DNA of 35,957 bases from positions 1-35,957 of the IMG/VR virus record IMGVR_UViG_3300025128_000150; one strand, 5' to 3'. Numbering within the stretch: position 1 is the stretch's first letter; every line of letters starts with the position of its first letter. Origin of the DNA: a virus. The translations under genes were made by a program, and so were the position numbers. Below, in pieces: positions 6,169 through 28,958 of the stretch. The notes under the pieces were generated by a model, which saw only the letters and a list, made by a program, of their open reading frames with translations, was not told the DNA's origin and searched no databases.

Positions 6169-8091
6169 TTAAGTTATGTCTACGACTTCACACACACCTG
6201 CAGTACAAGCAAGTTCGTTGCTACCAGATGTAGTGTCTTCTTTTTCATACTCTGAAAGCAAAGCCCAATCAATTTTACTAGGCATGTTATCTAACATAGC
6301 ATGATACTCTTCTTCTGTACAGTCTTGATATGGAGCTTGTTTGTAGGTATGTTCACTAAAAGGTAGAAAACTAATACCTGATATCTCATCAAAGTTTTCA
6401 TACACCCATGCTCCTACAGACATCCACTCTTCTTCTTTAACCGACACAGTTATAGATGGTTTATGCTCACACCAATGTCTTTGATACATAAGCCATAAAC
6501 CTAACTGAAAGTCGGCAGTATTCTCTTCTCGTGTTACAGCAGAACGTGGTGACTTCATAGGGAAACTAAACACTGTTGTACTGTCGGGCTTTGTTACGTC
6601 AGGCTCGTTAGGTATTCCTTGAGCCGACATAAACTGTGTCAATGGGTCTTTGTTATCTCCACGTACTGTTCGTATGTAATACGGTGCGTGTCTAGCATGT
6701 ATACCAGATGCGCTGTCTACAAGTTGTGACACAGTACCACTAGGTTTTACTGTTGTAACAGCCGTAGACTGCGGTATGTTTAGTTGCTTCGCAAAATGTT
6801 TGTTTGTGTCGATGGCAACTTGTTTCATTTCTTGAAGAAGGTTACATTGTTTTTGTCCAATGTCATTGAGTAACCCACAATCTTGTATGCCAGTTAATGA
6901 CACGCCTAGCAGTCTTTCTTCTTCTGTGTTATCTTTCCATATCTTTCGTAGGTATTTAAAGTCTGTAAGAGTAGCTTGGAATGTACCTAAGATAGTTGCC
7001 ATGCGTACTTTATTCTTTAAAGTGCTTTCCGTATCTGCCTCTCTTACCACTACCTCTGTAAGATTACAGAACTGATATGGGCGCAGTATTATTTCACTAC
7101 ATGGGTTGCAACCAAACTCGTAGTTTGTATCTCGTCTGCCATTCTTGGCAGCTTGTGCTATGGCAGACTGCCTATTAAATATACCACGTTCTCCTGATTT
7201 ACTTTCGTATAGCGCAAGCCATTCACGCATGAATGTGTCCATATCAGGCTTGAACTTATAGGACACGCTGTTGTTAGCCAATGCCCTTTGTCCTTCATTC
7301 TCCCACCACTGTCCTGACTTAGCATGACGCATTTGTGTATCACCTAAATTAGATAATGATATCAACGCACTGCGCCTCACACCACCTACAACTACTACCT
7401 CACCTACCTTACACATAATGTCGTGACACTCAAGAGGATATAGTCTACGATTCTTTGCTTGTGTAAACTTCTCAATACAAAACTCAAACAGTTCTTCTAA
7501 TGGTGCAGGTCCGCTTGCCCTACCGCCAAATGTTTTAAGTCTTGCACCTGCTGGGCGTACCTCTGATACATCCCACTTAGGTATCTGGCCAGCATATAAC
7601 ATTGCAATCAACTCACGTAAAGCTCTTGCCCAACCGGGTCTGCTATCCGCTACCTTTATAATAGTATCGCTCTTTTCAAAGTGTTCGTTAATAATAGGTA
7701 GCTTGTCTACGTTCTCTCGTTCTACAGAAAAACCAACGCCTGTGCCACACATGAGTACGTACATTGTTTCATCGAAAGCACGAGGACTATCCACGGGTAT
7801 GTATGAACAGTTGTATCCTGCCACATGGCATCTGTCTAAAGCCGCACCTGCAGTCATCAACGCTCTCATACTTGGCATAACTTGTTGATTTAACACTGCT
7901 TCTTGCAGTTCTTCTTTTAAATCGTTTGTTAAATCAAAGTTATTCTTTTTCTTGAGGTGCTTTTGCATGTTATCAAAGTATCGTGATACTGTTTCTATCC
8001 ATGTCTCACGTCTTTGTTCATCATCTTTCCATCTTGCGTAGCGAGATAATGCAATAAAGTTTTGATAGTCTGTTGGTAAATAGTTATTCAT
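6169..8091 (-). CDS. nrdJ: Adenosylcobalamin-dependent ribonucleoside-triphosphate reductase (class II, monomeric)
   Basis: Reduces ribonucleotides to deoxyribonucleotides for phage DNA synthesis, using coenzyme B12 as radical source and so needing no oxygen. The active-site pattern of the monomeric Lactobacillus leichmannii enzyme is complete: an N-terminal redox Cys in GYNCSYIPV (Cys95), the thiyl-radical motif GCNPCSE (Asn329, Cys331, Glu333), the partner Cys342 exactly 11 residues later, and the C-terminal shuttle pair Cys629/Cys634 (C-x4-C) seven residues from the end. The 640-aa length is short for this family (about 740), as in many marine phages. The ATG at 8091 has AGGAGA upstream and overlaps the previous gene by 4 nt (ATGA). 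It ties the phage to hosts that make or import cobalamin. Confidence 0.93.
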   Translation of the reverse strand: MNNYLPTDYQNFIALSRYARWKDDEQRRETWIETVSRYFDNMQKHLKKKNNFDLTNDLKEELQEAVLNQQVMPSMRALMTAGAALDRCHVAGYNCSYIPVDSPRAFDETMYVLMCGTGVGFSVERENVDKLPIINEHFEKSDTIIKVADSRPGWARALRELIAMLYAGQIPKWDVSEVRPAGARLKTFGGRASGPAPLEELFEFCIEKFTQAKNRRLYPLECHDIMCKVGEVVVVGGVRRSALISLSNLGDTQMRHAKSGQWWENEGQRALANNSVSYKFKPDMDTFMREWLALYESKSGERGIFNRQSAIAQAAKNGRRDTNYEFGCNPCSEIILRPYQFCNLTEVVVREADTESTLKNKVRMATILGTFQATLTDFKYLRKIWKDNTEEERLLGVSLTGIQDCGLLNDIGQKQCNLLQEMKQVAIDTNKHFAKQLNIPQSTAVTTVKPSGTVSQLVDSASGIHARHAPYYIRTVRGDNKDPLTQFMSAQGIPNEPDVTKPDSTTVFSFPMKSPRSAVTREENTADFQLGLWLMYQRHWCEHKPSITVSVKEEEWMSVGAWVYENFDEISGISFLPFSEHTYKQAPYQDCTEEEYHAMLDNMPSKIDWALLSEYEKEDTTSGSNELACTAGVCEVVDIT

Positions 8092-15395: not shown

Positions 15396-16508
15396 TCACT
15401 TTTCTGTAAGACACTTGCTAGTGCTTATATCATGCATCTTTCTAGTAGTCAACGCATAATTAGCACTCGTAAATGTATTTTTCATGTAGGGTTTTACTGA
15501 CTGTGGATTACTGTGTCCTGTAACCGACATGATTTGTCCTATACCGACACCAGACTCTACCATTTCGGTAGTTCCTGTCCTTCGTAAATCCATCAGTCGC
15601 AACTCTTCAGACAGCCCACACTTACGCATGACTGCCCTTCCAGCTTTCGATAGTCTTTCCATACTGTAAGGGTGGTACATGCCATCAACAGGCTTTACAC
15701 GGGGTGCTATGTACCTTTGGAATCCAAAGTCATCGTGCTGTTGTTTTAGCATGGAACACAAGTCATCGCTAATAGGTAGCGTTACCTCTGCCCTACGCTT
15801 ACTTTGTTCAAGAAATAATTTCTGTTGCACAAAGTCCACATTATCCCACTCTAACAGTCGCATGTCACCCAATCGTTGACACCATTCGTATGCCATATGG
15901 ATAATCAAACCAATATTTCTGTAGGCAAAGTCGCTGTAGCACAAGTCCAAGAAGGATTGTATGTCACTCTCCGACCACACAACCTTTCTTTGCACAGGTG
16001 TTTTTCTTTTGACTGTTGCAAATGGGTTACTGTGTGCATGTTCCATGTCCATAGCAAAACGATAGACACGAGAGGCACAGGTACAAACGTGGTTGGCAAA
16101 CTGTACACCTCTCTTGACCCACTCCTCGTAGGCATGCTTGGCCTGCTTAGTCGATATAGTTTGGAAGCGTCTGTCACCCAGACTGTCAAGTAAAACAGAC
16201 AACAAATATCTGTAGTCCTTTCTAGTTTGTTCACGTAACATACTGTAATCATTGGATTTATAATATGCCTCTACAAGCTTTTGTAATGTGTGGCTTTTGT
16301 GCAACACTATAACCTGTGCTTGCTCCTCTCGCCACTCATCAATCTTGCGATTATTCTCTGCGACTATCTTACGCACTTGCTTTATGTCACTGCCGTATTG
16401 CTCACGCTTTACGACACCAGAATCTACCAATTTTTGTGGTGGATTGAATCTGTACTCAACCACACCATACGCAGTAGTCCTAGCTTGTGTATATCTAGGT
16501 AGCTTCAT
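15396..16508 (-). CDS. int: Tyrosine site-specific recombinase (phage integrase)
   Basis: Would catalyse integration and excision through a 3'-phosphotyrosyl link. The N-terminal part holds a SAM-like core-binding region (about residues 75-165). Catalytic residues seen: Arg in CQRLGDMRLLEW, Lys in the beta-hairpin SKRRAEVTLPI, Arg in MDLRRTGTTEM, His in SVTGHSNPQSV, and Tyr in VKPYMKN. The usual His of the HxxR box is Met here. The start is placed at the ATG at 16508 (MKLPRYTQ), sharing one base with the upstream stop (TAATG); an in-frame ATG at 16550 would overlap the neighbour by 43 nt. It sits inside the replication cluster, and no attP or repressor gene is evident in the window. Confidence 0.88.
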   Translation of the reverse strand: MKLPRYTQARTTAYGVVEYRFNPPQKLVDSGVVKREQYGSDIKQVRKIVAENNRKIDEWREEQAQVIVLHKSHTLQKLVEAYYKSNDYSMLREQTRKDYRYLLSVLLDSLGDRRFQTISTKQAKHAYEEWVKRGVQFANHVCTCASRVYRFAMDMEHAHSNPFATVKRKTPVQRKVVWSESDIQSFLDLCYSDFAYRNIGLIIHMAYEWCQRLGDMRLLEWDNVDFVQQKLFLEQSKRRAEVTLPISDDLCSMLKQQHDDFGFQRYIAPRVKPVDGMYHPYSMERLSKAGRAVMRKCGLSEELRLMDLRRTGTTEMVESGVGIGQIMSVTGHSNPQSVKPYMKNTFTSANYALTTRKMHDISTSKCLTEK

Positions 16509-17353
16509 TAGGCAGCCACTAACTCTTTGAACTGAGGCGTAGCTATCCACTTGTTTACTTCAAGTTCTCTGTTGAGCATAGTCACACTCTTGGTGTCACC
16601 TTTAGTGTCCTTAATTGTGAAACCATTGCGTTCATCACCGTAGGTAGAGTAGTTGGTGAAGGCAGAGTAAAGAGCAAAGGCATTGTGACCACGCACACTT
16701 GTCTCTTGTGAGTACAAGGTGTACATCTTCTTAGCCTTAGTCTCAGACATAATCTTCTTAAGCAAAGCTTTAACATCTACATGTTGTGTGTCTGTGTCAG
16801 CCATGTCCTGTAGTCTCTGTGTCTGTTGAAAGAAATCTCGCTCTGCTCGTTCCAGTTTGTAAACAAACCCTGCATTAGTATAGTTAGACGAGTGCCTACT
16901 CTGTACTTTATCATGCTCACCATTTATCTGTCCATTAAAACAGAAGGTATCTATAGTACCCAAGAAACAGTTGGCAGATGTCAAGCTATCTATAGACGTA
17001 AAGGCAATCCATCTAGGATTAATAACTGTCTCCATCTTAGGAGTAGTGATACGTTCAATCCTATGTGGTAGTGTCACATCCATACATGCAAACCCGCCTC
17101 TGCGTCCTGTTCGCCAGTTAAACTTAGCACCTTCTAACTCTTCTGGTTCTAGTATGTCGGTCATCGTAGACCACACTCCATTGAAAAATTCACCATATGG
17201 TGCGACTGGTCTACCAGTACCCACGTAGTCTACAGCTTCGCCTGTGTCTAGTCTTCTGACTAGCTTTTTATGGGGTACTTCAGTACGTTCTACTGATATG
17301 TTAAAGTCAATATCCTTAGGGATATCTAGTTGGTTTGTAAAATCTAAGGGCAT
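16508..17353 (-). CDS. DUF932-like phage protein, 281 aa
   Basis: The pattern GRRGGFACMDVTLPHRIERI, then INPRWIAFTSIDSLTSA, then FCFNGQINGEHDKVQSRHSS resembles the DUF932 (phage/plasmid-like) family, where an early R...C-N-G...RH block is conserved; the match is from memory and moderate. The biochemical role of DUF932 is unknown to me. The ATG at 17353 has a strong AAAGGAGA site and follows a 126-bp gap, so this gene may start its own transcript that continues into the integrase. The first 11 codons coincide with one copy of a 31-bp repeat also found at 18454-18484. Confidence 0.6.
   Translation of the reverse strand: MPLDFTNQLDIPKDIDFNISVERTEVPHKKLVRRLDTGEAVDYVGTGRPVAPYGEFFNGVWSTMTDILEPEELEGAKFNWRTGRRGGFACMDVTLPHRIERITTPKMETVINPRWIAFTSIDSLTSANCFLGTIDTFCFNGQINGEHDKVQSRHSSNYTNAGFVYKLERAERDFFQQTQRLQDMADTDTQHVDVKALLKKIMSETKAKKMYTLYSQETSVRGHNAFALYSAFTNYSTYGDERNGFTIKDTKGDTKSVTMLNRELEVNKWIATPQFKELVAA
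17322..17352. repeat. 31-bp direct repeat, copy A (start of DUF932-like gene)
   Basis: This stretch is 30/31 identical to 18454-18484 in the same orientation. Here it encodes the first residues of the DUF932-like protein (PLDFTNQLDI) on the minus strand. The only difference is G/T at the twelfth base. Because it is the functional 5' end of a gene here, it is more likely the source copy. Confidence 0.85.
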
Positions 17354-20044: not shown

Positions 20045-20217
20045 TCTTCCCACTCCTTTACGTATAGAAATTCAATTTTCTTGGTAGGATGTAACTCTTG
20101 TGTCATTGCCAACGCAAGTTCCACCGCAGATTTCCACCCACCTTCTTTGATTTGTGAGGGATGGACAGTTACCTGCCCATGCTCCTCATTAATTTGTACG
20201 CCTACATCCCAATGCAT
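20041..20217 (-). CDS. Small hypothetical protein, 58 aa
   Basis: Found by reading the gap between two longer genes. The frame runs from an ATG sharing one base with the upstream stop (TAATG) to a TGA overlapping the methyltransferase start (ATGA), so it exactly fills the interval, which is strong positional support. The product starts MHWDVGVQINEEHGQVTVHP and ends KKIEFLYVKEWEE. It is acidic with alternating strand and helix tendencies; residues 27-42 (GWKSAVELALAMTQEL) look helical. No family recognised. It may act with the methyltransferase or only be coupled to it. Confidence 0.7.
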   Translation of the reverse strand: MHWDVGVQINEEHGQVTVHPSQIKEGGWKSAVELALAMTQELHPTKKIEFLYVKEWEE

Positions 20218-20600
20218 TAAGCTACCTTCCTAGCTTTACCACGTGTTTGTCTTGCAAGATTACGTGTGTTACCAATCTTAACAATGCCAATGTTCACAGT
20301 TAATACTTTGCCATGAGCCTTAGACCTAACGGCTTCGCCAAGTGCTTTGTGTAGCTTGTCTAACACGACACCGACTACAGATTGCGTAGTGTACTGAATG
20401 TACCCGCCCTTTTTAGCCTTGATGTCTCGTGCTTTACCGAGTGCAAAGTTGTACAACTTGTACCTACCTAGCTTAACGCCATGATATTTTTCATATAACT
20501 TTTCAACTCTCGCTAGTTTTTTCTCCACTTCTTGTGATGCTAACACTTGCCCAGTTTTACCTGTTGAACGCTTGTAATATGTGATTGTTTGTATTGTCAT
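20217..20600 (-). CDS. Basic hypothetical protein, 127 aa
   Basis: Not recognised. Rich in Lys and Arg, especially at the C-terminus (GNTRNLARQTRGKARKVA), which suggests nucleic-acid binding. A helical middle (VEKKLARVEKLYEKYHG) precedes a strand-like segment. ATG at 20600 has AAGGAG upstream and overlaps the upstream gene by 4 nt. One copy of the 16-bp AGTCC-N6-GGACT dyad lies 28 nt upstream of the start, within the upstream gene, so its translation could respond to a hairpin there. Confidence 0.6.
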   Translation of the reverse strand: MTIQTITYYKRSTGKTGQVLASQEVEKKLARVEKLYEKYHGVKLGRYKLYNFALGKARDIKAKKGGYIQYTTQSVVGVVLDKLHKALGEAVRSKAHGKVLTVNIGIVKIGNTRNLARQTRGKARKVA

Positions 20601-21037
20601 AATATGACTCCTTCCGTTGGTTGTTGTAGTCCGTCGTCGGACTTAGGGTTATTGACGATTGCCCACACTGAGGGAACACCCCCATATGTGCCAAGCGTCA
20701 CGATAGACGCACTCGTAACAGGCTTTTCAGTTTCACTGTATACCTCAACGAATGTGTCGTGTTTGTAGGGGTTGTATGTCACCTTGACTGCTCCATTGTG
20801 CGAACCAGCCATAGGCTTTTTTACATCTACTGTACCCACTACAAAAGCATGCACGTTCTTTCTACCTTGTGAACGGACACGCTTTTTACCACCTTGTTGT
20901 ACCTTGAATGTGGCATCAACAAGGTTAAGTGCAAATGTATGGTCAACGACACGATTAGTCTTGGTATCTTGTACCGACCAACACTTCTTGTGTAAGTTCC
21001 AATACACTCGCACTCTTTTGTTGTTAAGCTCTAGCAT
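20597..21037 (-). CDS. Hypothetical protein, 146 aa
   Basis: Not recognised. The N-terminal half is strand-rich and basic (NKRVRVYWNLHKKCWSVQDT, VQQGGKKRVRSQGRKNVHAF), the second half is richer in Thr/Val/Gly. Repeating 'VxVYWN...CWSV...' and 'VVGTVDV' segments suggest a small beta-barrel or an RNA/DNA-contacting surface. ATG at 21037 has AAAGGAATT upstream, inside the end of the preceding small gene. The DNA near its 3' end, encoding KSDDGL, contains dyad copy 20628-20643. Confidence 0.6.
   Translation of the reverse strand: MLELNNKRVRVYWNLHKKCWSVQDTKTNRVVDHTFALNLVDATFKVQQGGKKRVRSQGRKNVHAFVVGTVDVKKPMAGSHNGAVKVTYNPYKHDTFVEVYSETEKPVTSASIVTLGTYGGVPSVWAIVNNPKSDDGLQQPTEGVIL
20628..20643. repeat. 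AGTCC-N6-GGACT dyad, copy 1
   Basis: Sequence AGTCCGTCGTCGGACT. In leftward RNA it folds as a 6-bp stem with loop ACGA. It shares 24 identical bases (20621-20644) with copy 2. It lies 28 nt upstream of the start at 20600, within the end of the 146-aa gene. Confidence 0.8.
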
Positions 21038-21161
21038 AATTCCTTTCCCTCAATTTCATTTTGGCTTTGCGATTAGCTCTCTTCTCAGCATCTTTATGTT
21101 CTCGCTTTAGCTTTGGCTTAATCCTAATCTTTACGAATGTCAATACTTCTTGCTTCCGCAT
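21024..21161 (-). CDS. Small basic protein, 45 aa
   Basis: Read directly from the sequence. ATG at 21161 follows AAGGAGAG at good spacing, and the 46-codon frame ends in TAA at 21026-21024. The product starts MRKQEVLTFVKIRIKPKLKR and is over one third Lys/Arg, with a long basic helix (DAEKRANRKAKMKLRERNY). Such peptides usually bind RNA or DNA. It overlaps its upstream neighbour by 38 nt and its downstream neighbour by 14 nt, and its last codons contain the next gene's ribosome binding site. A coding role is likely from the start signals and coupling, but no family is known to me. Confidence 0.55.
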   Translation of the reverse strand: MRKQEVLTFVKIRIKPKLKREHKDAEKRANRKAKMKLRERNYARA

Positions 21162-21294
21162 TGGTTCTCTCCTTCTGTTGCTTGCGGTTTACTTTTGCCT
21201 TGCCACCCTTACGTGCTGGCACGACTTGCTTATGTGTACGAGATTGTAACATAGCCCTAGCGATAGGGTTGATACGTGTTATCGTGGGCTTCAT
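21124..21294 (-). CDS. Small basic hypothetical protein, 56 aa
   Basis: ATG at 21294 (MKPTITRINPIARAMLQSRT) is chosen because AAGGAG precedes it; the frame is open further upstream but without a good start. The protein is Lys/Arg-rich (VVPARKGGKAKVNRKQQKER) and likely binds nucleic acid. It is one of four consecutive small basic products in 20.2-21.3 kb, a pattern typical of early genes that affect host transcription or translation. That role is inference. Confidence 0.55.
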   Translation of the reverse strand: MKPTITRINPIARAMLQSRTHKQVVPARKGGKAKVNRKQQKERTNAEARSIDIRKD

Positions 21295-21305
21295 TACATT
21301 ACTCC

Positions 21306-21950
21306 TTAGTGTTTTAGGTAGGTGATATTGGCGACACCAAAATCCCAACATGCTCTACAATCAGCACACTTGTTGCCTTGTGTACTGGACGGACACATAT
21401 ACCCAATCGAAAGGTCTTTGCTCGTGGCTACTGTGCTACTATGCTCGTGATGCTTTGGCGGTACGCCATTCACCATTGATGCACTTAGTCTTACAATCAA
21501 GTTAGGTGGAAAGCTACCATGCTTCTTCTTGTATTGCTTTACCAAAGCACCTTCTTGCGTAGGCAACCAATGCTTGACGTTAGGTGTGCGTATTGCAATC
21601 GTGGCAATCTTTTCCAAGTGGTCAAGGCTTTGTATATCACCGCTATCGTGCCACCTAAAGACACCACTCTTGGTGCAATAATTCAGCACAAGAAATACCA
21701 TAGCGTCAATCCATTTGGGGTTGTGCAATAGCTTGTCCATACGCCTATCCAGCGCACCTTGTACATTAGGGAATACGTATCTACCTTTGAGAGCATAACA
21801 TGTTGAGCATGGAGAGTTTTCCACTAGACGTAGCTTACTTCCTACGTTGCATTCATATGCACTTAATGAGTATCCGTAGCTTGGCATCTTGGAAGGCTTA
21901 GACAATCCGCCTACTTCTTCCCATGCTTGTTTTACTGTAAAGTCCGACAT
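21306..21950 (-). CDS. GP88-like Cys-rich protein, 214 aa
   Basis: Resembles the phage 'gene product 88' family as I remember it: a Pro/Cys block ENSPCSTCYALKGRYVF, then RWHDSGDIQS, a PNVKHWLPTQE block, PPNLIVRLSAS, and a C-terminal Cys cluster (MCPSSTQGNKCADCRACWD). Six cysteines in two groups suggest a zinc or Fe-S site linking N- and C-terminal parts; there is no CxxxCxxC radical-SAM motif. Function unknown. ATG at 21950 follows GAGGAG. The start codon lies in the loop of a 16-bp inverted repeat (21941-21956), so initiation may be structure-controlled. Confidence 0.6.
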   Translation of the reverse strand: MSDFTVKQAWEEVGGLSKPSKMPSYGYSLSAYECNVGSKLRLVENSPCSTCYALKGRYVFPNVQGALDRRMDKLLHNPKWIDAMVFLVLNYCTKSGVFRWHDSGDIQSLDHLEKIATIAIRTPNVKHWLPTQEGALVKQYKKKHGSFPPNLIVRLSASMVNGVPPKHHEHSSTVATSKDLSIGYMCPSSTQGNKCADCRACWDFGVANITYLKH

Positions 21951-21956
21951 AGGACT
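21941..21956. repeat. AGTCC-N6-GGACT dyad, copy 4 (holds a start codon)
   Basis: Sequence on the plus strand AGTCCGACATAGGACT. In leftward RNA it reads AGTCCTATGTCGGACT, with the AUG of the GP88-like gene in the six-base loop. It also overlaps the stop codon of the preceding gene by two bases. Confidence 0.75.
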
Positions 21957-22152
21957 ACTCCTCTCCAAATGTTGTTGCCCATTCTTCGGGCGTGATGCCT
22001 GTCATTAGGAACTCACGCTCGTCCGGGTTGAGATGTGGGAACACGTTTTGCACGAGTTCACCCTCTTGCCAACACTGTATTTGCGTTGGAGTAACGTCCA
22101 AATCCATAGTGTTTACGTTACCGCTAAAAGGTGATGTTTTTTGTATTAACAT
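21955..22152 (-). CDS. Small acidic hypothetical protein, 65 aa
   Basis: Begins at ATG 22152 (MLIQKTSPFSGNVNTMDLDV) with GGAG about 7 nt upstream; a TTG 12 nt earlier is less likely. Contains VTPTQIQCWQEGELVQNVFP, then HLNPDEREFLMTGITPEEW. I recall very similar short proteins from many marine phages, always uncharacterised. It is the first gene after a 132-bp gap with a promoter-like sequence, and its leader holds a copy of the 16-bp dyad. The GP88-like gene's ribosome binding site overlaps its end. Confidence 0.7.
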   Translation of the reverse strand: MLIQKTSPFSGNVNTMDLDVTPTQIQCWQEGELVQNVFPHLNPDEREFLMTGITPEEWATTFGEE

Positions 22153-22172
22153 TTTAATCTCCAAATTGTTGT

Positions 22173-22188
22173 AGTCCGTCGTCGGACT
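22173..22188. repeat. AGTCC-N6-GGACT dyad, copy 2 (5' leader)
   Basis: Identical to copy 1 over 24 bases (22166-22189). It lies between a leftward promoter-like sequence and the start at 22152, 21 nt upstream of the ATG and just upstream of its ribosome binding site. It could be an operator near +10 or a hairpin at the 5' end of the mRNA. Confidence 0.8.
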
Positions 22189-22204
22189 TGGTTAATGTGT
22201 ATAT

Positions 22205-22233
22205 TATATAAAACACTTTCATATACATTTCAA
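22205..22233 (-). promoter_or_regulatory. Candidate leftward sigma70 promoter
   Basis: On the minus strand TTGAAA (22233-22228), a 17-nt spacer, then TATATA (22210-22205), with an overlapping TATAAT two bases downstream. It sits in the 132-bp gap 22153-22284 directly ahead of the 65-aa gene and would place the dyad copy 2 near the transcript start. Confidence 0.45.
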
Positions 22234-22240
22234 GTGTTTT
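22210..22240. terminator. Perfect 9-bp hairpin with U-rich tails on both strands
   Basis: Arms AAAACACTT (22210-22218) and AAGTGTTTT (22232-22240) with a 13-nt loop. Each strand ends the stem in a T4 run. Downstream of the 69-aa membrane-protein gene it could act as a leftward terminator, but the stem is AT-rich and it overlaps the promoter candidate, so it may instead be an operator. Confidence 0.4.
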
Positions 22241-22284
22241 TATAATAGTACACAATTAAGTAGATAATGGGAGGGAAAGTACCA

Positions 22285-22494
22285 TTAGGTAGGGTTTCTT
22301 TGTAAAGCAACAAACATAAATCCTAATGTACCAAATGCCATGAGTATGCAAGCAAATACGAATAGGTATACGTCCATTACATTGTACCCAAAGTCAGCGA
22401 CTTTCGTGCTTTCCATTGCTTCGACTAAGTGTAAGCCTACAAAGAAGTAGGCTGTTGATACTAATAAGATTGATAAGTTAGCTATAAGTTTCAT
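22285..22494 (-). CDS. Small membrane protein with two transmembrane segments
   Basis: The 69-aa product has hydrophobic helices at about residues 3-25 (LIANLSILLVSTAYFFVGLH) and 40-63 (VYLFVFACILMAFGTLGFMF), joined by a short polar loop, with a polar end. ATG at 22494 has GGAG upstream. It resembles small early membrane proteins and could be a superinfection-exclusion factor, a holin-like protein or an antiholin; the sequence does not decide. Confidence 0.65.
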   Translation of the reverse strand: MKLIANLSILLVSTAYFFVGLHLVEAMESTKVADFGYNVMDVYLFVFACILMAFGTLGFMFVALQRNPT

Positions 22495-22497
22495 TGG

Positions 22498-22704
22498 TTA
22501 AACTCCGTTTAATATTTCATTGAGTATTGATAATGCTTTATCATTATCATTGTCAAGCTGTTTCTTTTCGTAGTCAGCTTTCCACGTTGGTAGAATACCA
22601 CTACGATAGATAATAGGGGTTGTGTCTTTCTCCTGTACATAGGCAGGCCATGAGCTACGAACATGATACCTACCTATGCATGAGGGTTGCACTCGCTTTG
22701 CCAT
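22498..22704 (-). CDS. Hypothetical protein, 68 aa
   Basis: Not recognised. Basic/aromatic N-terminus (MAKRVQPSCIGRYHVRSSWP) and an acidic helical C-terminus (KKQLDNDNDKALSILNEILN). The start shares one base with the stop of the preceding gene (TAATG). Second gene of the leftward cluster from the control region, hence probably immediate-early. Confidence 0.55.
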   Translation of the reverse strand: MAKRVQPSCIGRYHVRSSWPAYVQEKDTTPIIYRSGILPTWKADYEKKQLDNDNDKALSILNEILNGV

Positions 22705-23249
22705 TAGGCAACCTTTGCAAGTTGTGGTGCTTCAGCTTTCGGTGCTAACGCATCTCGTAGTGCAAGCAACAGTTGCTCACGGCTCACGTTGTGCTTGTCA
22801 CACTTGGCTAGTGCTTGCTCAACAATCTGTTCAGCGGTTAGTCCTACGTCGGACTTGGCTTCAGCCTTGCGTGCTTTCTGCGTAGCCTTCACAAGAGCGT
22901 TCATGTTTGTAAATCCTTTCTCTGAGGATTCAGCAAGCTTGTCGCACTCCGACTTGTTCTCTACGTAGAACAATGCGTCAGCTCGACGTTGCTTTGGAAT
23001 GTTGTGGATACCACAATCTTGCAACCTAGAGGTTGGAATACGCTTACCATCTTGCTCACACTTCAACTCAAACATGAGTTCACCCAAAGCGGTGTCAAAG
23101 GTAGCTGAACGCTTTGCCAAGTGCTTTTCAGCACTACTGAGTACCTTGTACTCTTTGGCAATAACCGAGCCACGACTTTCAAGAGTATTGAAAGCGTTAG
23201 CAAGTTTTTCGGAGAACGATTGAGTTTTTGTTGTTGTTGGGTTTGCCAT
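22704..23249 (-). CDS. First leftward early gene, 181 aa, unknown
   Basis: The first gene left of the divergent control region. ATG at 23249 with AAGGAAAAG upstream. The product is hydrophilic and helical, with a Ser/Thr-rich start, a central stretch DCGIHNIPKQRRADALFYVE, and an Ala/Lys-rich C-terminal helical part (EQIVEQALAKCDKHNVSREQ) ending in low-complexity Ala/Pro. A small helical domain near residues 125-165 could be DNA-binding, but no clear helix-turn-helix is seen. Its place suggests a takeover or regulatory role; this is inference. The codons for KSDVGL carry dyad copy 3. Confidence 0.6.
   Translation of the reverse strand: MANPTTTKTQSFSEKLANAFNTLESRGSVIAKEYKVLSSAEKHLAKRSATFDTALGELMFELKCEQDGKRIPTSRLQDCGIHNIPKQRRADALFYVENKSECDKLAESSEKGFTNMNALVKATQKARKAEAKSDVGLTAEQIVEQALAKCDKHNVSREQLLLALRDALAPKAEAPQLAKVA
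22840..22855. repeat. AGTCC-N6-GGACT dyad, copy 3 (intragenic)
   Basis: Sequence AGTCCTACGTCGGACT. It is within the 181-aa gene and not near a start codon. Its reverse complement differs from the plus-strand sequence of copy 4 by one base. Confidence 0.65.
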
Positions 23250-23271: not shown

Positions 23272-23323
23272 ATTATAAGAGAAACAATATATCTCTCATA
23301 AGTATATGAGATATATTTTTCTC
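23272..23323. promoter_or_regulatory. 45-bp imperfect dyad next to a leftward -10-like box
   Basis: Nested arms GAGAAA/TTTCTC (23279-23284, 23318-23323), ATATAT/ATATAT and CTCATA/TATGAG (23295-23300, 23305-23310) surround the centre AGTA. On the minus strand TATAAT lies at 23277-23272, 23 nt before the first leftward ATG, but no good -35 box is at the right distance. A regulator-dependent promoter/operator is one reading; a rightward hairpin followed by T5 is another. Confidence 0.4.
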
Positions 23324-23819: not shown

Positions 23820-23848
23820 TTGACACAGATATGGATACATGGTATAAT
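23820..23848 (+). promoter_or_regulatory. Strong rightward sigma70 promoter
   Basis: TTGACA (23820-23825), exactly 17 nt, TATAAT (23843-23848): both boxes match the consensus fully. Transcription would begin near 23855 and give a ~136-nt leader before the ATG at 23991. Host housekeeping RNA polymerase should use it; no phage RNA polymerase gene is visible in the window. It drives the rightward gene cluster. Confidence 0.85.
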
Positions 23849-28028: not shown

Positions 28029-28759
28029 TGCCCTACTTACAAAGCAATATCCCATACTTCAAAGCATGGGTAAGACGAGAGTATACATGTAACTTTGAAC
28101 AATATCATGGTGAGTTTTTACATTGTATGGTGATAGCGGTAACAACTATGCCAAACAGATGTTTAAGTTTTCAAGTAATATTTACAGGTTGCGAAGCAGA
28201 TGAAGAAGATGAGCCAAACATACATGGTGGGGCAATGTGGGCTAGGATGCCCATTACAGCTTTAGTTGGAGATACCCCTGTAAAAAAATGGGCAAAGGAA
28301 CTGCCAGTCTATGCAGCACAACCTTGGGATTGTATGTCACACAATCATTCGGTGTATGTATTAGATAGAGCTACTCCTGCACCTTGGGTGGCAAAAGTCG
28401 ATGGAGAATTTTATCCTGCTAAGTACTACTTTACAGTAGATTATACAGGTAGTGAAATTGCAGATGACCCTGCACAGCACAAACAAAGTCACGTGCTAGA
28501 ACTAATGGATGCAGGTAAATATACAGGTAACATTGTGGCGTTACCCAATAATAGGGTAAGAGTAACTCACCCTGCATGGTTTGAAACAGGACAAGGCGCA
28601 CCAGACTTTAAGCCTAATCAAAATGTGTTTCATTCCAAACTAGAAACCGAATACGTTTGGGATACCCAACGTGTCTTTAATAACTTATATAATGAGGAAA
28701 ATAAACATGGCAATGAAAAAACCAAACGCAAAACAAAAGGGAATAAAAAAGCTTCCTAA
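28028..28759 (+). CDS. Conserved marine-phage hypothetical protein, 243 aa
   Basis: The N-terminal ~210 residues look like a folded alpha/beta or all-beta domain (PYLQSNIPYFKAWVRREYTC, LHCMVIAVTTMPNRCLSFQV, PWDCMSHNHSVYVLDR, PAKYYFTVDYTGSE, RVRVTHPAWFETGQG). I know similar proteins from T4-like cyanophages and other marine phages, without function. Several Cys and His residues might bind metal. The Lys-rich last 20 residues are out-of-frame with the start of the next gene, which they overlap by 53 nt. Confidence 0.65.
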   Translation: MPYLQSNIPYFKAWVRREYTCNFEQYHGEFLHCMVIAVTTMPNRCLSFQVIFTGCEADEEDEPNIHGGAMWARMPITALVGDTPVKKWAKELPVYAAQPWDCMSHNHSVYVLDRATPAPWVAKVDGEFYPAKYYFTVDYTGSEIADDPAQHKQSHVLELMDAGKYTGNIVALPNNRVRVTHPAWFETGQGAPDFKPNQNVFHSKLETEYVWDTQRVFNNLYNEENKHGNEKTKRKTKGNKKAS

Positions 28760-28958
28760 ACCTGTCCGCAATAAAATGGGCTATATGGCTAAAGGCGGAA
28801 CAATGAAGAAAAAAGGTTACGCTAAAGGTGGAGCTATGAAGAAAAAAGGTTACGCTAAAGGTGGAGCTATGAAGAAGAAGGGCTACGCTAAAGGTGGAGC
28901 TATGAAGAAGAAGGGCTACGCTAAAGGTGGAGCTATGATGAAAAAGAAAAAGAAGTAA
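28707..28958 (+). CDS. Lys/Gly repeat protein, 83 aa
   Basis: ATG at 28707 (MAMKKPNAKQKGIKKLPKPV) follows GAGGAAAA. After a short basic start it consists of four tandem 11-residue units MKKKGYAKGGA, preceded by a half unit (MAKGGT) and closed by a Lys run. No hydrophobic core is possible, so it should be disordered, strongly cationic and nucleic-acid or envelope binding. Comparable KGG repeats are seen in other marine phages. It overlaps the preceding gene by 53 nt. Confidence 0.6.
   Translation: MAMKKPNAKQKGIKKLPKPVRNKMGYMAKGGTMKKKGYAKGGAMKKKGYAKGGAMKKKGYAKGGAMKKKGYAKGGAMMKKKKK
28803..28934 (+). repeat. Four tandem 33-bp units
   Basis: Units at 28803-28835, 28836-28868, 28869-28901 and 28902-28934, all encoding the same 11 residues. 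Units 1 and 2 are identical in DNA; units 3 and 4 are identical to each other but use AAG and GGC where units 1 and 2 use AAA and GGT. Confidence 0.92.

Follow-up and report, generated by a model that had tools for sequence, protein, structure and literature searches.

A 35,957-nucleotide (nt) stretch of viral DNA, IMGVR_UViG_3300025128_000150 (hereafter the window, itself a whole IMG/VR fragment record), contains four copies of the dyad AGTCC-N6-GGACT, and we consider it probable (about 0.75) that these dyads serve a phage-encoded early repressor as 16-bp palindromic DNA operators. The repressor would most likely be p181, the 181-residue product of the first gene of the early operon. This reading is carried by the conservation of the dyads in multiple copies, their near-uniformity within most phages, their overlap with promoters in several lineages, their co-occurrence with p181, and their covariation with its N-terminal part. 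That p181 binds the sites directly, dimerises, represses transcription, and takes part in lysogeny is what we infer from these sequence patterns.

The window represents a piece of an HMO-2011-like phage genome; its polymerase shares 74% identity with that of Puniceispirillum phage HMO-2011 and 67-68% with the polymerases of Roseobacter phages CRP-1 and CRP-345. HMO-2011-type phages have been described as a viral group that is dominant and widespread in the sea (PMC9038755), and two main papers on these phages mention neither a promoter, nor a repressor, nor a palindrome.

Dyads in the early region of the window and its relatives

The four dyads, called operators D, C, B, and A (copies 1 to 4; table 1), lie within 2.2 kb of the leftward early region (20.6-22.9 kb), between p181 and a cytosine methyltransferase gene and among genes that are all on the minus strand; the rest of the window has none. 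Dinucleotide shuffles of the window predict 0.07 dyads, and none of 100 shuffles reached four. An earlier note, drawn from the letters of this DNA alone, had placed all four copies exactly, and it was right that their clustering exceeds chance and that the first and third are identical over 24 bases (20621-20644 and 22166-22189). It also correctly saw a start AUG in the loop of one copy (the GP88-like gene has its ATG within the N6 of copy 2) and another copy in a 5' leader near a promoter candidate (copy 3, downstream of a TATAAT). As a correction, copy 4 lies inside an open reading frame (ORF) and away from any junction; copy 1, too, runs into the 3' end of an ORF, and its distance to the next start codon is one nucleotide shorter than the 28 nt announced.

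The dyad recurs in HMO-2011 (five copies), CRP-1 (five), CRP-345 (six), and about 100 IMG/VR contigs, with three to eight copies each, mostly in the early region; long phage records carry four to six, again mostly there. It is not multi-copy in CRP-2, CRP-603, CRP-207, HTVC033P, CRP-235, and CRP-3, and the contigs returned by exact-pattern scans of IMG/VR were mostly single-copy and chance-like. Three close relatives have three to five copies of the window's own dyad, again clustered, and the 53-kb record 3300030099_000192 has all four within 2.6 kb. Over the 104 loci fetched through p181 (searched with subgroup alignments; near-duplicates and contigs seen before included), we counted 490 sites for 3.2 expected. 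Chance or a simple repeat is ruled out by these figures and those of the window.

The arms GTCC/GGAC were also the search pattern, and their invariance across all sites is thus partly due to selection, a bias from which the comparison of homologous leaders of the 127-residue gene downstream of operator D is free. A search with the 127-residue protein gave 42 loci, and the dyad occupies the same place in nearly all readable leaders, having been lost in three. Operator D is coding in the window and in locus L006, and intergenic in L005 and L086, where the overlapping 146-residue ORF is missing; that it keeps its place before the 127-residue gene despite this loss indicates that the DNA, and not the protein, is conserved. 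Operator B is found at the same place in L006 and L086, and operator C is kept in L006 and absent at the GP88-like gene in L005 and L086. Neither of the two outcomes that the earlier note would have taken as a refutation is seen: the window has no copies elsewhere, and relatives keep copies at the same junctions, including where the overlapping coding sequence is gone.

As a separate observation, CRP-1 (position 6867) and CRP-345 (position 7078) share a single operator-like dyad, TGTCCAAGGTTGGACG, at the same place in their integrase gene.

Anatomy and placement of the sites

Around the core arms GTCC/GGAC, each half-site reads approximately NGTCC[A/G/T][A/C/T], with A as first base in the window. 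The inner bases are near-uniform within most phages and differ between phages (AATGTT, GATGTC, GCTGAC, GACAGC, and others), the changes from one phage to another being symmetric between half-sites (A..T vs. G..C). The lineage of the window is the most mixed in this respect (GACGTA, GACGAC, and TATGTC on the coding strand), and two inner-base types are mixed in loci L256-L265. Little sequence beyond the 16 bp is common to different classes of sites.

Among the 379 unique sites of the p181 loci, 66 fall inside p181 and 73 upstream of it, 200 are followed within about 60 nt by a ribosome-binding site (RBS) and a start codon, and the other 40 are found elsewhere; the RBS-proximal sites end at a median of 9 nt from the RBS. 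Sequences resembling a -10 hexamer show a sharp maximum at 5 nt before the site (17 vs. 1.8 expected, for 125 unique sites), so that the dyad should extend there from about +1 to +16, with start sites and promoters as read from the sequence; this overlap is confined to a subset of lineages. Several operator-bearing early promoters (L149:7240-7289, L140:6215-6260, L162:2105-2151, and others) also have in common an extended upstream element, CACTTGAA-N..-GTGAAAGTGTTTTAT-CACTTAGATATACT, whose AAGTR/YACTT inverted repeats precede the -10 and which may be the site of a second regulator.

The sites inside p181 are all in one reading frame (66/66 unique sites), occur in 72 of the 86 distinct p181 relatives, and encode S-N/D/A-x-G in a linker that otherwise varies and is rich in gaps. 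Together with the sites upstream of p181, they put the regulator gene near its own operator in most relatives; the window has no dyad upstream of p181 and carries the internal site only. It can be noted that the S-[N/D/A]-x-G residues of the linker follow the operator type, the overlapping DNA site (22840-22855 in the window) dictating part of the protein sequence.

Co-occurrence and covariation with p181

In a reference set of 14 genomes, p181 is present in all eight that bear the sites and in none of the six that do not, and among 50,697 phage records it is found only in HMO-2011 (two records; gp74), CRP-1 (gp01), and CRP-345. Of the contigs fetched through p181, 103 of 104 carry the site, when a control set fetched through the neighbouring GP88 gene (77 contigs, 702 kb) has four sites in all and no contig with two. 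The single p181-bearing contig without GTCC-N6-GGAC, L325 (IMGVR 3300032277_000291), has the motif DSQRR and may use a different operator.

The type of operator also follows p181 more closely than it follows other proteins. Operator type changes three times on the p181 tree and five to seven times on four other gene trees; for instance, the G-type locus L145 has a 127-residue protein almost identical to that of the A-type locus L139, yet its p181 reads KQRR. In a column scan, a leave-one-out accuracy of 0.85 in predicting the inner base is reached by 8 of 164 p181 columns and by no column among the 771 taken from four other proteins. Residues 85 and 87 (D..R vs. P/A..Q, within a conserved x[KR]xRR segment) attain 0.96 over 26 phages, L153 being the one exception. 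As a strict code, these two residues were rejected, given out-of-sample exceptions in the larger set. Partial Mantel tests between whole p181 and operator distance, with each of three control proteins removed in turn, give r of 0.59-0.73 (permutation p 0.0005), while the controls keep next to no signal; the N-terminal part carries the correlation (0.61-0.74, p 0.0005), which is weak in the C-terminal part (0.11-0.24), and the control proteins fall to between -0.10 and 0.05 once the N-terminal part of p181 is accounted for. Column 134 of p181 associates as well, but it is encoded by the operator and was discounted; the N-terminal test excludes it. When 20 proteins are compared over nine long genome records, p181 comes out on top (r 0.70), with primase so close (0.67) that this set alone does not discriminate. 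Coevolution through shared ancestry alone was rejected, as control proteins fail to explain operator type in the trees, the column scan, and the partial Mantel tests. Overall, the earlier note's suggestion of an operator set for a phage regulator finds good support in the conservation and uniformity of the sites, their promoter overlap, their survival of coding loss, and their ties to p181.

Weighing the alternatives

Several points weigh against p181 as the reader of these sites. Searched against Pfam, PHROG, and PDB sequence profiles, p181 gave no usable relative and no match to a helix-turn-helix or other DNA-binding family. L294 combines KQRR with A-type sites, and L267, L270, L280, L304, L306, and L307 combine D[KR]RRR with G-type sites. 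Each tree offers only one to three well-supported independent contrasts, too few for significance, although none goes in the opposite direction, and Mantel tests may be anticonservative when the genomes are related. For several RBS-proximal sites, copy D among them, no promoter can be seen. Finally, a 146-residue protein and a 116-residue protein have the same presence pattern as p181 and the sites in the 14 reference genomes, and the 116-residue protein (r 0.44 vs. 0.70 for p181) was compared across the nine genome records only. Those last two proteins, or a host regulator, could be the factor that reads the operators, with p181 merely linked to them, and p181's lack of a recognised DNA-binding domain would then be no surprise. 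We deem this unlikely: the 146-residue protein is missing from many site-bearing loci, and its partial Mantel correlation drops to 0.01-0.05 given whole p181 or its N-terminal part, while a host factor poorly explains why operator types are phage-specific and move with p181 through recombination.

The earlier note had also raised translation-control hairpins, that is, dyads acting as short mRNA hairpins beside ribosome-binding sites and bound by p181 or another protein to control early-gene translation. The 200 sites just upstream of an RBS and a start suit such a role, and a stem of 5-6 bp can form, but the remaining evidence makes it improbable. Many sites are far from any RBS or within ORFs, sites are also found upstream of p181 and at likely transcription starts, and no compensatory arm variant occurs in the homologous leaders from the 42 loci. 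In the lineage of the window, the sixth RNA pair is broken in many sites when each half stays within AGTCC[GT][AT], and an asymmetric centre is found in both orientations in 31 of 104 loci; taken with the half-site symmetry, this is easier to reconcile with a dimer that reads DNA than with a protein that recognises an RNA loop. The predicted folds are weak too (z from -0.6 to -1.5 at the window's four sites and from -0.1 to -2.2 in seven leaders), and the start-codon hairpin of operator C is absent from the minimum-free-energy structure. Still less credible is the view that the dyads are spreading repeats or signals for replication or packaging, devoid of regulatory role: they are indeed multi-copy, homogenised within genomes, and clustered in one region, but they hold fixed places (likely transcription starts, RBS-proximal positions, one frame in p181), and their classes share little beyond a 16-bp core that changes symmetrically between phages. 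A recent spreading repeat is ruled out by these positions and by this symmetric, phage-specific change.

A possible early regulatory circuit

If the dyads are operators of p181, this protein would be made at once upon infection, as the first early gene product. Its dimer would bind its own and other early promoters, at their start sites or immediately downstream, as well as a few intra-operon sites, one of them within its own coding sequence, and would thereby shut down or tune early transcription in a Cro-like, self-limiting manner. We favour a repressor over an activator because the predicted sites are at +1. p181 may also keep the prophage silent, a role made possible by the fact that these phages carry an integrase. 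With regard to this, a tyrosine integrase is encoded in the window and in site-bearing reference genomes, and an integrase is reported in most members of two HMO-2011-type subgroups, with integration shown for CRP-3 (PMC9038755), so that a role in immunity is possible. A scan of GTDB genomes with one p181 subgroup found no relative, hence no prophage copy at that sensitivity.

A bolder proposal, which we hold tentatively while regarding it as quite possible, is that p181 is the founding member of a new family of DNA-binding repressors in phages, one that sets immunity groups among HMO-2011-type phages, the repressor and all its dispersed operators shifting specificity together and the operator in the p181 linker codons dictating SNVG, SDVG, or SADG. 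HMO-2011-type phages, among which HMO-2011, CRP-1, and CRP-345 are cultured carriers of the system, would gain from the operator reading as a whole a defined regulon, a candidate master repressor, and possibly an immunity-type readout straight from sequence. If true, this reading would add a new protein family to phage DNA-binding regulators and offer a clear-cut example from nature of a regulator and its operators coevolving, mosaic swaps included.

Features of the window

Table 1. Putative operators, genes, and promoter-like elements of the window
Feature	Position	Strand	Remark
Operator A (copy 4)	22840..22855	-	Inside candidate repressor gene p181; codes KSDVGL
Operator B (copy 3)	22173..22188	-	Leader of 60-residue gene, just downstream of promoter-like sequence
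Operator C (copy 2)	21941..21956	-	Spans start codon of GP88-like gene; ATG 21947-21945 inside N6
Operator D (copy 1)	20628..20643	-	27 nt before start of 127-residue gene; overlaps 3' end of 146-residue ORF
p181, candidate repressor, 181 residues	22704..23249	-	First gene of early operon; putative recognition segment RLQDCGIHNIPKQRRADALF
60-residue gene	21955..22137	-	Downstream of operator B; phrog_20898, function unassigned in PHROG
GP88-like gene, PF17338	21306..21947	-	Start codon within operator C
146-residue gene, mycobacteriophage L5 gp82-like, PF25735	20597..21037	-	3' end overlapped by operator D
127-residue gene	20217..20600	-	Downstream of operator D
Tyrosine integrase	15396-16550	-	Downstream in the window
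-10-like TATAAT	22203..22208	-	14 nt upstream of operator B; direct reading
Promoter-like ATGAGA-16-TATAAT	23272..23299	-	Just upstream of p181; consensus match only

Other features of the window deserve mention. The 146-residue gene strongly matches gp82 of mycobacteriophage L5 (PF25735), though the phage is marine, and shares the phyletic pattern of p181 in the 14 reference genomes. A perfect sigma-70 consensus promoter, TTGACA-17-TATAAT with a TG before the second hexamer, reads into the rightward gene block (23820-23848, plus strand), and a small lysine-rich ORF (28671-28958, plus strand) consists of head-to-tail MKKKGYAKGGA-like repeats.

Comparison with known systems

Phages are known to use translational operators, as in the cases of MS2 coat protein and T4 RegA. 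The dyads resemble these in lying beside ribosome-binding sites, copy C even covering a start codon, but the conserved stem expected of an RNA hairpin beside the RBS, with its compensatory changes, was not found: the stems are uncompensated, the centre is insensitive to orientation, and many copies are distant from any RBS.

In Cluster A mycobacteriophages (L5 type), the stoperators are 13-bp asymmetric sites, distributed genome-wide and bound by a monomer (PMC6550527, PMC9283540). The dyads likewise form multiple sites dispersed in transcribed regions, with phage-specific variants, some near the repressor gene. They differ in being 16-bp dyads with matching half-sites rather than asymmetric sites of about 13 bp, and in numbering three to eight per phage, mostly in the early region, rather than being spread genome-wide; nor does p181 match a known repressor profile in Pfam, PHROG, or PDB.

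The lambda Cro protein is encoded by the first gene of an early operon and acts on short palindromic operators at early promoters. p181 differs in having no sequence relation to any known family found, in the dispersal of its presumed dyads over several kb that include coding sequence, one dyad being within the regulator's own gene, and in that no CI-like partner gene was recognised. On the other hand, dyads overlap early promoters, as predicted from sequence, in a subset of lineages, and the regulator gene appears to be under its own operator in p181 relatives, the window having the internal site only. With p181 first in the early operon, palindromic dyads at putative early promoters, and negative autoregulation implied, the system would thus be alike to that of Cro.

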